Part shown: one piece after another, positions 5,697 to 43,439 of the stretch
How the letters are laid out: each line of letters starts with the position of its first letter
How positions within the stretch are numbered: the first letter of the stretch is position 1
Source: Sinorhizobium sojae CCBAU 05684
GTDB lineage: Bacteria; Pseudomonadota; Alphaproteobacteria; Rhizobiales; Rhizobiaceae
Assembly (NCBI RefSeq): GCF_002288525.1
Contig: NZ_CP023067.1
Span: 558,001 to 622,000 of the forward strand
Length of the DNA: 64,000 bases
Direction: 5' to 3'
Position numbers and translations under genes: made by a program
The notes under the pieces: model-generated
What the model was told of the DNA's origin: nothing
Seen by the model: only the letters and a program-made list of their open reading frames with translations
Databases searched by the model: none

Positions 5697-5725
5697 AATA
5701 AAAAAGGCCGGGAGAACCCGACCTT
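5697..5725 (-). terminator. Rho-independent terminator of the cold-shock gene
   Basis: Read on the minus strand: AAGGTCGGG-TTCT-CCCGGCCTT followed by TTTT. The 9-bp stem, tetraloop and T tract make it a clear intrinsic terminator. It lies 74 bases past the csp stop and separates it from the two downstream genes. Confidence 0.85.
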
Positions 5726-5798
5726 CCTATCGCCTCACCTGACCGGTGCCAGTACATCCGTGGTCAAAAGTCGGGAGACGACAAAATACGCCGCTCGA

Positions 5799-6008
5799 TC
5801 AGAGGGCTCGGAGATTTTCTGCAGACGTCTTGCCCGTGCGGCGGTCCTGGGTAAGCTCGAAGCTGACCTTCTGACCTTCCTTGAGGGTAGACATGCCGGC
5901 GCGCTCGACGGCGGAGATGTGCACGAACACGTCAGCCGCGCCGTCCTCCGGCTCAATGAAGCCAAATCCCTTCGTGGCGTTGAACCACTTTACTGTTCCA
6001 GAATTCAC
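5799..6008 (-). CDS. cold-shock protein (CspA family)
   Basis: The 69-residue OB-fold nucleic-acid-binding protein contains RNP1 (KGFGFIEP) and RNP2 (VFVHISAV), plus [14 protein letters not shown] near the N-terminus. Such proteins melt RNA secondary structure. I place the start at GTG 6008 (VNSGTVKW), with AAAGGGAT upstream; the frame opens earlier at a TTG without a ribosome binding site. The AT-richer stretch from 6009 to about 6180 is probably the long 5' untranslated leader common in csp genes. Which csp paralogue this is cannot be told from sequence alone. Confidence 0.92.
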
Positions 6009-41499: not shown

Positions 41500-42069
41500 T
41501 CAGGCGAGCCGGTGCTCCTCGGCATAGAGCGCGAGATAGGCGTCGAGCGCCTCGGATCCGAGGCCGAGCGCGCGGAAGACTTCAGCCGCAAAGCTCACCG
41601 GAGCGGTGCCTGCGGCAGTCACCAGGCGACCGCTGCGCACCGCCTGCGGCTGGTCGCGATAGTGGCTCTGGCCTTGATAGCCGGGAACCGCCGCAAGGCT
41701 TTCGGCCGAGTTGCCGGTGTGATCGGCCCCATTGAGGATGCCGCTTGCGGCAAGCGCCAGCGTGGCGCCGCAGATTGCCGCGACCACGCGGTCTGCCGTA
41801 TGGAAGGCGCGGATCGTGTGTGACAGGTCCGGTGCCGCGGCGGTTTCCCAGATGGTGCCGCCGCAGAGCACGAGCCCGTCGAATTCCGCCGGTGCGAGCG
41901 TCTTCGCCGGCAGGTGCGGCGTGATGTGCAGGCCGCCCATCGAGCTCACCACCGTGCCGCCGGGGGAGGCAACGAGGAGATCCACCCCAAGCTCGGCGCG
42001 CGCCGTTGCCATCAACAGCGCGCATTCCCAGTCGGCAAAGCCTTCCGTCAGCACGATGGCAACGCGCAT
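41500..42069 (-). CDS. DJ-1/PfpI family protein
   Basis: The 189-residue protein has the DJ-1/PfpI flavodoxin-like fold: MRVAIVLTEGFADWE with the conserved Glu, LVLCGGTIWE, and the nucleophile elbow VVAAICGATLALAASGIL with Cys100. Family members act as glyoxalases, deglycases or chaperones; the exact role cannot be told. It ends 55 bp from the convergent diheme cytochrome. It follows the GNAT gene by 13 bp on the same strand, so the two form an operon under the attenuator described below. Confidence 0.9.
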   Translation of the reverse strand: MRVAIVLTEGFADWECALLMATARAELGVDLLVASPGGTVVSSMGGLHITPHLPAKTLAPAEFDGLVLCGGTIWETAAAPDLSHTIRAFHTADRVVAAICGATLALAASGILNGADHTGNSAESLAAVPGYQGQSHYRDQPQAVRSGRLVTAAGTAPVSFAAEVFRALGLGSEALDAYLALYAEEHRLA

Positions 42070-42082
42070 CGAGCCCTCCTCT

Positions 42083-42586
42083 TCAGCCTATGCTCTGAAT
42101 ATGGCGCATGCCGGTCACAGGGCGAGGCACGAAGCGCTCGGATTCGTAGAAGCGATGCGCCTGGAAATTGCCGGTCGCGGCGCTGACGGAGAGATAGTTG
42201 CAGCCCGCCATCTTTGCCTGTTCCCGCGCCTTGGCGACGAGGTGGCGCCCGATCCCGGTGCCACGATGACCTGGCCGGACGAAGAGGTGATGCAGCTCCA
42301 TGCCGCGTGCGCCCTCGGCCGCCCTGTACAGGGGGACCAGGATGGCGTAGCCGATCAACGAACCGCCGGCTTCGGCGACGAGAGCGGTAATCCAGGGCAT
42401 GCGGCCGAAAAGGTCGCGCTCGAGCTGTTCATTTGTGATCGGAGCGGCGTCGCCGTGATGGGCGGAAAGCTCGGCGATCATTTCGCGCAGTTCGGCGACA
42501 TCGCGCGGCTTGGCGCAGCGGATCGTCACCATGGGCGCTCTGGCCGATGGCACGGGATGAAGGCTAGGTATGGCGGTCTGCAGCAT
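42083..42586 (-). CDS. GNAT acetyltransferase
   Basis: A 167-residue N-acetyltransferase. Acetyl-CoA motif A is visible in LFVRPGHRGTGIGRHLVAKAREQA (R/Q-x-x-G-x-G/A), followed by AATGNFQAHRFYESERFVPR. EMIAELSAHHGDAAPITNEQL is common in eukaryotic spermidine/thialysine acetyltransferase-like GNATs, so a polyamine or thialysine-type amine is a possible substrate (weak inference). GGAG lies 6 bases before ATG 42586. The 5' region contains a leader peptide ORF and a terminator, suggesting transcription attenuation. It forms an operon with the PfpI gene. Confidence 0.9.
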   Translation of the reverse strand: MLQTAIPSLHPVPSARAPMVTIRCAKPRDVAELREMIAELSAHHGDAAPITNEQLERDLFGRMPWITALVAEAGGSLIGYAILVPLYRAAEGARGMELHHLFVRPGHRGTGIGRHLVAKAREQAKMAGCNYLSVSAATGNFQAHRFYESERFVPRPVTGMRHIQSIG

Positions 42587-42623
42587 TCTCGGCTCCTATG
42601 GTTCTGCCGCCATCAGGTGCCGT

Positions 42624-42650
42624 GAAAAACAAAAGCCGCCTGATGGCGGC
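42624..42650 (-). terminator. attenuator terminator before the GNAT gene
   Basis: On the minus strand GCCGCC-ATCA-GGCGGC is followed by TTTTGTTTTTC, 38 bases before the GNAT start. Its left arm can instead pair with GCGGCCT (42670-42676), which follows the leader stop codon: GCGGCCT with AGGCCGC (42646-42652), 7 bp. A third arm, CCTGATGGCGGC (42606-42617), can pair 12 bp with the same left arm after read-through. Competing folds of this kind are the mark of an attenuator. Confidence 0.75.
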
Positions 42651-42678
42651 CTTGTTGAATATGATCAGCAGGCCGCTC

Positions 42679-42729
42679 CTATCGGAACAGCCAAAAATAC
42701 GCGCGGCAAATGGGTGCGTTCTTGATCAT
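42679..42729 (-). CDS. 16-residue leader peptide, leaderless
   Basis: MIKNAPICRAYFWLFR ends TAG three bases before the antiterminator arm. The aromatic run YFWLF sits where ribosome stalling would free that arm. No ribosome binding site is needed if transcription starts at the ATG, as predicted from the promoter; S. meliloti trpL is known to be leaderless in the same way. Starvation for an aromatic amino acid, or a drug that stalls ribosomes, would then allow read-through into the GNAT gene. Confidence 0.65.
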   Translation of the reverse strand: MIKNAPICRAYFWLFR

Positions 42730-42734
42730 GCCCG

Positions 42735-42763
42735 TAGATTCTCCATTTCCGGGCTTTTGTCAA
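42735..42763 (-). promoter_or_regulatory. sigma-70-type promoter for the leader/GNAT operon
   Basis: Minus strand: TTGACA (42763-42758), a 17-base spacer, then AATCTA (42740-42735). Transcription should start about 7 bases on, at or next to the leader ATG (42729). Confidence 0.75.
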
Positions 42764-42799
42764 CGGAGATTCTTGGCGGAACTCATACCAACTGCGCCG

Positions 42800-42960
42800 G
42801 TATCGGCCGATTGCGTGGGGCCGACTGCGGGTGTCCGGTGTGGAGCACACCGTAGAGCGATGCTCATGCATCGGTCGAGGATTGCGAAGCGGCCGACAGA
42901 GGGTCCGCCCGAAGGGCCGGCCGCTTACGGTCTGCGGGCTGTGTCGAAAGCCCTCACCGA
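42800..42960. other. structured intergenic region, possible RNA
   Basis: Three hairpins in a row: CGGTGTG-GAG-CACACCG (about 42835-42851), CGATG-CTCATG-CATCG (about 42858-42873) and a long AAGCGGCC...GGCCGCTT element (about 42886-42926). No T tract follows on either strand. It lies between the MerR gene and the GNAT attenuator. I cannot assign it to a known RNA family. Confidence 0.3.
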
Positions 42961-43025: not shown

Positions 43026-43439
43026 TCAGTGCTCGCTTTCGCACAGCGAGTGGTCGGCAAGCGCGCGGATCACGTAGCAGTCGCCGATGGTATGGTTGCC
43101 ATGGCAGGCGACGATGCGCTCCAATTCCTGTTCCAGCTTCTTCAGCCACGCGATCCTCTCCCGCACGGAGGCGAGGTGTTCGCTCGCAATGCGATCCGCC
43201 TCGCCGCAAGGGCGCTCCGGATGCTCGCTCAGGGTCAGCAGGTCGCGGATGTCTTCGATCGAAAGCCCGAGCTCGCGCGCATGGCGGATGAAGGCGAGGC
43301 GCTCGAGTTGGCGCCTCTCGTAGCGCCGCTGGTTGCCTTCGGACCGCTCCGGTGCCGCAATCAGTCCCCTTTGTTCGTAATACCGGATCGTCGGAATCTT
43401 TACGCCCGTCCGCCGGGAGAGGTCGCCGATCGAATACAT
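43026..43439 (-). CDS. MerR-family metal regulator (CadR/PbrR/ZntR-like)
   Basis: A 137-residue MerR protein. The helix-turn-helix is MYSIGDLSRRTGVKIPTIRYYEQRGL with wing NQRRYERRQLERLAFIRHARELGLSIEDI. Metal-binding cysteines are C78 (HPERPCGEAD), C112 (VACHGNH) and C121 (GDCYVIR), with a C-terminal CESEH tail, a pattern of Cd/Pb/Zn sensors. No metal transporter lies next to it. A MerR-type operator, CTATAG-CTT-CTGGAG, lies 16-30 bp upstream on the divergent strand, where only a beta-lactamase remnant is found. Confidence 0.88.
   Translation of the reverse strand: MYSIGDLSRRTGVKIPTIRYYEQRGLIAAPERSEGNQRRYERRQLERLAFIRHARELGLSIEDIRDLLTLSEHPERPCGEADRIASEHLASVRERIAWLKKLEQELERIVACHGNHTIGDCYVIRALADHSLCESEH

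Follow-up and report, generated by a model that had tools for sequence, protein, structure and literature searches.

The GNAT acetyltransferase gene in the window, by which we mean the whole 64,000-nt stretch of Sinorhizobium sojae CCBAU 05684 DNA analysed here, is preceded on the minus strand by a conserved leader that probably works as a ribosome-mediated attenuator. From comparison of sequences, we put at about 0.8 the probability that this leader controls the GNAT, probably at two levels, in response to the supply of Tyr-, Phe- and Trp-tRNA. A preliminary description of this DNA had proposed a leader-peptide attenuator here, and the proposal holds up in relatives, where the ORF, its frame, the sensor position, the arms and the terminator are kept and three pairings covary. 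The parts it had named (-35 element, ORF, arm GCGGCCT, terminator, U-tract and GNAT start) each lie on the minus strand where it had placed them. It had passed over the 1:2 hairpin at the leader stop, a possible helix P1 and element 5 after the terminator, which are listed with the other features in Table 1.

Table 1. Features of the leader, the GNAT gene and its neighbours (window positions).
Feature	Position	Strand	Basis or remark
-35 element TTGACA	42758..42763	-	read from sequence
-10 region GAATCTA	42735..42741	-	weak match to consensus
-10 hexamer AATCTA	42740-42735	-	17-nt spacing from -35
-10 hexamer GAATCT	42741-42736	-	16-nt spacing from -35
Putative transcription start, A of leader ATG (leaderless)	42729	-	inferred
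Leader ORF MIKNAPICRAYFWLFR, 16 codons and stop TAG	42679..42729 (TAG 42681-42679)	-	
Sensor codons TAT TTT TGG (Tyr, Phe, Trp), -6, -5, -4 from stop	42691..42699	-	
Strand 1 GGCTGTTCC, pairs with strand 2	42684..42692	-	fold and covariation
Strand 2 in 1:2 hairpin GGAGCGGCC, stop codon at loop	42671..42679	-	fold and covariation
Antiterminator arm (2) GCGGCCT	42670..42676	-	nearly invariant
TGATCAT, partner of leader-start ATGATCA (42729-42723) in helix P1	42661..42667	-	fold; weak covariation
3a AGGCCGC, complementary to antiterminator arm, overlaps terminator 5' side	42646..42652	-	
Terminator hairpin 3:4 GCCGCC-ATCA-GGCGGC	42635..42650	-	terminator scan and fold
3b GCCATCAGG, spans the terminator loop and the adjoining ends of both arms	42639..42647	-	alternative partner of element 5
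U-tract TTTTGTTTTT	42625..42634	-	
Element 5 CCTGATGGC, pairs with 3b or, by its 5' side, with SD region	42609..42617	-	
6, AGGAGCC with GNAT Shine-Dalgarno, pairs with GGCACCT 42621-42615	42591..42597	-	covariation and fold
GNAT acetyltransferase, 167 aa, proposed regulated gene, ATG at 42586	42083..42586	-	PF00583
DJ-1/PfpI family protein, adjoins GNAT downstream, possibly co-transcribed at this locus	41500..42069	-	
MerR-family regulator (CadR/CueR-like), upstream of leader	43026-43439	-	

In the proposed mechanism, transcription would start on the AUG of the 16-codon leader ORF. When charged tRNAs are ample, the ribosome would reach the stop codon and cover arm 2, so that terminator 3:4 would form, and in any RNA that is read through, element 5 would hide the Shine-Dalgarno (SD) sequence by the pairing 5:6. 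Without a ribosome, the 1:2 hairpin would lead to the same outcome. A ribosome waiting in the cell at the Tyr, Phe or Trp codon (-6, -5 and -4) would instead break 1:2 and let arm 2 pair with 3a; the terminator loop segment 3b would then pair with element 5 and the SD would be freed, with the result that the GNAT would be both transcribed and translated. The choice of element 5 between the terminator loop and the SD suggests that transcription and translation are controlled in a coupled manner.

The leader up to just past the U-tract folds better than its shuffles (z -3.9, with 0 of 200 shuffles equal), and three terminator hairpins were found against 1.6 (sd 1.3) expected over 2.2 kb on both strands, which is near chance. 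Since the parts of the single sequence, taken one by one, are near chance, the case rests on relatives. GNAT orthologues (E <= 1e-30) were found in 101 of 394 sampled genomes of the family, representing 23 of 109 genera, and the leader lies directly upstream of the gene in all 101. Outside the family, the 397 genomes of the order yielded one GNAT relative at E <= 1e-22 (L164, 39% identity). The nearest named GNAT is that of Ensifer sp. LCM 4579 (95%). We inspected 171 loci, namely 90 of the 101 family genomes, 80 named loci (the best 80 of 114) and L164. The preliminary description had let its proposal stand or fall by conservation of the ORF and the competing stems in relatives, and the leader proved readable in 171 of 171 loci, a count that holds under ORF search rules asking for aromatic sensor residues and with the leader of L075 assigned by hand rather than by rule.

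A covariance model, R1, was built from 42 GNAT leaders and gave 106 matches at E <= 6.9e-9 in 388 family genomes. Directly before a GNAT lie 99 of them, as expected because R1 was trained on GNAT leaders; the seven located elsewhere were not expected. R1 lists no match for two GNAT genomes, G393 and G390, and their leaders were found by reading (L020 and L026). A second R1 match in the window genome (G000:C1:3115503) is a terminator with no aromatic leader.

The leader ORF has 16 codons in 135 and 17 codons in 36 of the 171 loci; as only these two lengths occur, leader length appears to shift by whole codons. The 171 loci encode 76 distinct leader peptides, and the sensor is nearly constant among them: in 128 of 130 distinct leader DNAs the sixth and fifth codons before the stop encode Tyr and Phe, and Trp adjoins Tyr-Phe in 127 of 130. 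Around the Tyr-Phe core of these 128, Trp stands at -4 in 102, Trp precedes and Thr follows in 25, and one has no Trp. The deviating sensors read Trp-Phe-Tyr-Tyr (L087) and Tyr-His (L164). Codon choice at the sensor is also nearly fixed, with TTT for Phe in 128 of 128 and TAT for Tyr in 126 of 128 distinct leader DNAs. In the GNAT genes (170 loci, redundancy kept), by comparison, TTT makes up 48 of the 896 codons for Phe and TAT 222 of the 812 for Tyr. Outside the sensor, 102 of 103 Phe and Tyr codons of the leaders read TTC or TAC, at sites that lie in or near strand 1 and are constrained by pairing. The sensor holds one codon per aromatic amino acid, which is few for a classical attenuator and counts against the attenuator reading.

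The promoter had been described as a consensus one, and this is right for the -35 element, a perfect TTGACA at the window locus, and not for the -10 region. AATCTA agrees with TATAAT at two of six positions, and a promoter scan of the window sequence returned no sigma-70-type site at its threshold at the leader promoter. The alternative hexamer GAATCT carries the second-position A and the sixth-position T and would likewise put +1 on the A of the ATG. All 171 loci have TTGAC ahead of the leader, 34-37 nt before the ATG in 170 of them; its presence was part of the search rule for 81 loci (L164-L244) and not for the other 90. In 170 of 171 loci a C stands directly before the leader ATG. A transcript starting on the A of the ATG would fit both this C and the distance of the -35 element.

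Covariation and folding were analysed in 42 leaders below 90% identity, drawn from 140 distinct ones, with the GNAT starts of L049 and L084 set by hand for the covariation test. One locus, L185, failed the segment rule (hairpin and GNAT start with SD) and is absent from the covariation test, the folds, the GNAT codon count and the U-tract count. The duplex energies of true pairs were set against 2000 permutations across the sequences and against a reversed-strand control; permutations keep the effects of shared descent, hence we give weight to the reversed-strand controls. The pairing 3b:5 reached -17.8 against -14.5 kcal/mol (0/2000 permutations, z -9.8, control -1.1), with compensating pairs such as ATCAGG/CCTGAT, GTCAGG/CCTGAC, GCAAGG/CCTTGC (L034) and TTCGGG/CCCGAA (L083). 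Similar results were obtained for 5:6 (0/2000, z -8.6; control -2.3, 30/2000) and 1:2 (0/2000, z -8.2; control -1.9, 53/2000), and P1 covaried weakly (z -2.4, 16/2000; control +0.5). The antiterminator 2:3 scored z -3.5 against -4.1 in the reversed control; its arms are nearly invariant, so the test is uninformative for it. The preliminary description had proposed to look for covariation of peptide, arms and terminator among relatives; the pairings in which it was seen are 1:2, 3b:5 and 5:6, with P1 weak.

The terminator hairpin was matched in 170 of 171 loci, and a U-rich tail (at least 6 T in 12 nt) follows it in 162 of 170 leaders. The eight leaders with fewer T comprise seven of genus g81 (L070, L073, L075-L078 and L081) and L164; termination in these would have to come about in some other way, a point against the attenuator reading. 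Five of these are in the test set and keep 3b:5 at -12.5 to -18.4 kcal/mol, as if control in the leaders without a U-tract were exerted at translation.

Switching was modelled with equilibrium folds of the full leader in which the RNA under the ribosome was masked by a simple footprint rule. With the Tyr codon of the window leader in the A site, the best predicted fold contains 2:3 and 3b:5 and leaves the SD open; with the ribosome at the stop codon, 3:4 and 5:6 are predicted and the SD is closed; and the free RNA is predicted to carry P1, 1:2, 3:4 and 5:6. If the A site holds Phe or Trp instead, 2:3 is again predicted, yet the best fold keeps the SD paired, which counts against the attenuator reading as proposed. 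In the predicted ensemble of the window leader, the unpaired share of the SD region falls from 48% with the ribosome at Tyr to 27% when it is at Trp and 18% when it is at the stop. Across the 42 leaders, at least four of the six terminator pairs are predicted in 39 with the ribosome at the stop, in 40 as free RNA, in 23 at Tyr and in 22 at position -4, and 2:3 reaches four pairs in 0, 0, 5 and 9 leaders, respectively. The SD is predicted to be more open at Tyr than at the stop in 35 of 42 leaders, with a small mean gain of 0.07. Many relatives retain the terminator in their predicted equilibrium folds with a ribosome at the sensor, and this, like the scarcity of 2:3 and the small gain in SD opening, also counts against the attenuator reading.

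The seven unexpected R1 matches in the family bear on what the leader may sense. Five lie before tyrS and have leaders ending in YYATSP (L122-L126; the gene is split in G379), and of the other two, L127 is followed by a tyrS remnant and L128 by no tyrS. Order-wide R1 matches before tyrS have leaders ending in YYATLP or YYATFP (L129-L131), those before tyrS in family f41 read VYFYYVTS and similar (L136, L137, L140, L141 and L150-L153), and those before a prephenate dehydrogenase gene end in YYRLSS, YYRPLT or YYRTNP (L132-L134). The Tyr-Tyr sensor stands at -6/-5 in L122-L134 and L270 and lies farther from the stop in the longer f41 tyrS leaders. Among weak R1 matches (E beyond roughly 1e-6), most of those we read looked like bare GC-rich terminators or unrelated stretches, as in L135, L138, L139, L145-L148, L154, L156 and L157. 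Weak matches, read in part only across the family and the order, were kept if leader and gene were readable, some with E as high as 0.009, and these are the f41 tyrS leaders, L149 and L155. L149 (G178:C12:31628-31753) is a trp leader, MNKTLNIANWWWAR, probably before trpE.

A further covariance model, R2, matched in 35 of 397 genomes of the order at E <= 5e-4. By reading, these comprised 10 GNAT leaders, 7 before tyrS (one leader unclear), 4 before prephenate dehydrogenase and 3 before DAHP synthase, together with 1 leader remnant, 5 terminators or unrelated sequences and 5 that were left unread. The DAHP synthase leaders contain SYFWYFSY or NYFWYFSY (L271, L273 and L278), and the one found via R1, L155, contains NYWYFSF; in all four the enzyme is of the AroG type, in large genomes of family f35. 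The downstream genes were identified by TIGR00234 above cut-off for tyrS (for example L126, L129 and L136), by TIGR00034 above cut-off for DAHP synthase (L155 and L271), and by PF02153 above cut-off, below NCBIfam cut-offs, for prephenate dehydrogenase (L132-L134 and L270). The tyrS and prephenate dehydrogenase leaders share with the GNAT leaders the order of parts, a Tyr-first sensor, the GCCGCC terminator and an element 5. Complementarity between that element and the terminator loop is seen in the tyrS leaders, is poorer in f41 and is weak in L132 and L134; the DAHP synthase leaders have the aromatic ORF and the terminator, and L271 and L273 show no convincing element 5.

Of 14 chosen genomes that were searched with this protein, nine have the leader-borne tyrS and another TyrRS gene as well (in G379 the leader-borne copy is split in two pieces). 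The other five are G202 with a tyrS remnant, G071 with a leader without tyrS and one TyrRS elsewhere, and G000, G045 and G270 with one TyrRS each. By this search, the tyrS under putative leader control is an accessory second copy. It looks as if this copy were being lost in places, as L127 holds a tyrS fragment and in L128 and L267 a leader was seen without tyrS. Second copies of TyrRS or TrpRS help under D-Tyr or drug stress (PMC9437257).

The GNAT itself matches PF00583 with 63.1 bits (gathering score 20.7, E 3.6e-17) and reaches none of the curated NCBIfam cut-offs. Against the NCBIfam aminoglycoside, streptothricin and arsinothricin resistance acetyltransferases it scores about 19-28 bits, with cut-offs of at least 125, and neither the GNAT nor PfpI has a match in PADLOC. 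A score of 56 bits to HaaN, a cyclophane RiPP GNAT with a cut-off of 250, was read as general GNAT similarity. The closest solved structures by sequence include thialysine acetyltransferase (E 7e-11) and diamine acetyltransferase (E 6.5e-10). Its leader suggests that the GNAT is probably part of a response to aromatic amino-acid shortage. It may detoxify an aromatic analogue, or, by analogy with MccE and RimL, which inactivate aminoacyl-adenylate-like inhibitors (PMC3817062), it may inactivate an inhibitor of that kind; by analogy with a GNAT-related enzyme cited for N-acylation of D-Phe, D-Tyr and D-Trp (PMC8762209), it may also acylate these D-amino acids.

Other explanations of the leader were weighed against aromatic attenuation. 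It might sense a ribosome-targeting antibiotic by nascent-peptide arrest of the erm or cat type, with the GNAT modifying the drug, which we consider improbable. Some GNATs are known to modify antibiotics. A Tyr-Phe core at a fixed distance from the stop would agree with arrest, and several ribosome-targeting antibiotics are sensed by the E. coli uORF toiL (PMC12121999); however, the remaining peptide is highly variable in its 76 versions, and the GNAT falls below every curated resistance-enzyme cut-off. The sister leaders moreover hold Tyr-Tyr at those positions before Tyr genes and an aromatic mix before DAHP synthase, which fits codon sensing. The preliminary description had offered both signals; because the leaders before tyrS, prephenate dehydrogenase and DAHP synthase carry fitting sensor codons, aromatic supply is favoured and the antibiotic is left without support. 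It is rather unlikely that control is mainly translational by SD masking, with termination minor or clade-specific, which would be a version of the attenuator reading and overlaps with it. The best-supported pairings, 5:6 and 3b:5 with 1:2, and the persistence of 3b:5 in leaders without a U-tract speak for such a version, whereas retention of the terminator with its U-rich tail in the great majority of leaders speaks against it.

The terminated leader RNA or its peptide might also act mainly in trans, like rnTrpL and peTrpL, leaving the link to the GNAT secondary. The putative leaderless layout is alike, and peTrpL of S. meliloti does act in trans (PMC7298713), but this alternative is very improbable given that the family sample contains no GNAT without the leader (101 of 101) and that a cis-acting leader would make sense of a pairing between element 5 and the SD region. 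Hardly credible is an unregulated arrangement in which a constitutive GNAT promoter follows a leftover terminator of the upstream MerR gene. A MerR match does occur upstream in the same orientation in 115 of 171 loci, but the 56 loci without a MerR match retain the leader, the ORF is intact and the pairings covary. The attenuator that reads aromatic codons remains the preferred explanation.

Ribosome-mediated attenuators are already known, among them that of trpRS1 of Streptomyces coelicolor. Examples before aminoacyl-tRNA synthetase and DAHP synthase genes have been predicted in print, namely uORFC-8-2 (cysS, Rhodobacterales) and uORFC-13-1 (aroF, Acholeplasma); these differ from the sister leaders in amino acids and lineages, and the available excerpt of the source describes no second SD switch for them (PMC8632094). 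The trpL attenuator of S. meliloti (rnTrpL/peTrpL) resembles the proposed GNAT attenuator in its ORF at the transcript start, its sensor codons and its choice between terminator and antiterminator (PMC7298713, PMC10117765), whereas it carries consecutive Trp codons and serves a biosynthetic gene, and the GNAT leader has one Tyr, Phe and Trp codon each and a putative SD-masking switch. Phe_leader (RF01859) shares the idea of a Phe-sensing attenuator, and the GNAT leader is not a member of it (16.5 bits against a gathering cut-off of 55); Rfam 15 gave no family at gathering score within 42500-42800. Like the auxiliary synthetases, such as the indolmycin-resistant TrpRS1 and Bacillus subtilis TyrZ (PMC9437257), the sister leaders concern a second TyrRS; the target here is instead a GNAT, and the window genome has one TyrRS gene with no R1 match before it. 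In toiL, before topAI-yjhQ, uORF stalling controls access to a downstream ribosome-binding site, as proposed for the GNAT leader; toiL senses ribosome-targeting drugs and works with Rho (PMC12121999), in contrast to the intrinsic terminator and aromatic sensor codons of the GNAT leader.

Among titles and the starts of abstracts in the open-licence PMC literature, we found no report of a GNAT under such a leader or of this attenuator family. New here would be the mixed aromatic sensor, the probable leaderless start, the acetyltransferase as target and a second switch, covarying with the terminator loop, that would mask the SD. The covarying element 5 suggests a design in which a single stalled ribosome governs termination as well as the ribosome-binding site. 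An RNA that reads codons tells which amino acids its gene answers to, and the leader thereby offers a clue to function (Tyr, Phe and Trp jointly) for a GNAT conserved in many Rhizobiaceae, grouping it with accessory TyrRS and aromatic-pathway genes. A wider and tentative reading, possible and on balance doubtful, is that the leaders form an unrecognised attenuator family of the order, one that would couple termination to ribosome access and would direct a response to aromatic stress, in which Tyr-Tyr leaders would serve accessory TyrRS and prephenate dehydrogenase and, in Rhizobiaceae, Tyr-Phe-Trp leaders a GNAT that N-acylates a compound starving all three aromatic tRNAs. The compound might then be a toxic aromatic analogue, an aminoacyl-adenylate-like synthetase inhibitor, or D-Phe, D-Tyr or D-Trp, and the purpose of the GNAT would be detoxification or a first salvage step to the L form. 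If so, the attenuator would name the substrate class of an orphan enzyme.

The neighbouring genes vary between loci, for MerR and PfpI alike, while the leader is constant. The acetyltransferase/PfpI pair of the preliminary description adjoins at the window locus and is not a constant arrangement: of the 170 loci with enough sequence, 79 have a downstream PfpI match in the same orientation. The MerR match upstream is within 450 nt of the leader in 92 of the 115 loci that have it. MerR-target promoters have a longer spacing than 16-17 nt. With that spacing at the leader promoter and MerR upstream in 115 of 171 loci only, MerR was rejected as the local regulator. Elsewhere in the window, the Rfam sRNA ar35 matches at 5697-5812 on the minus strand (59.9 bits).
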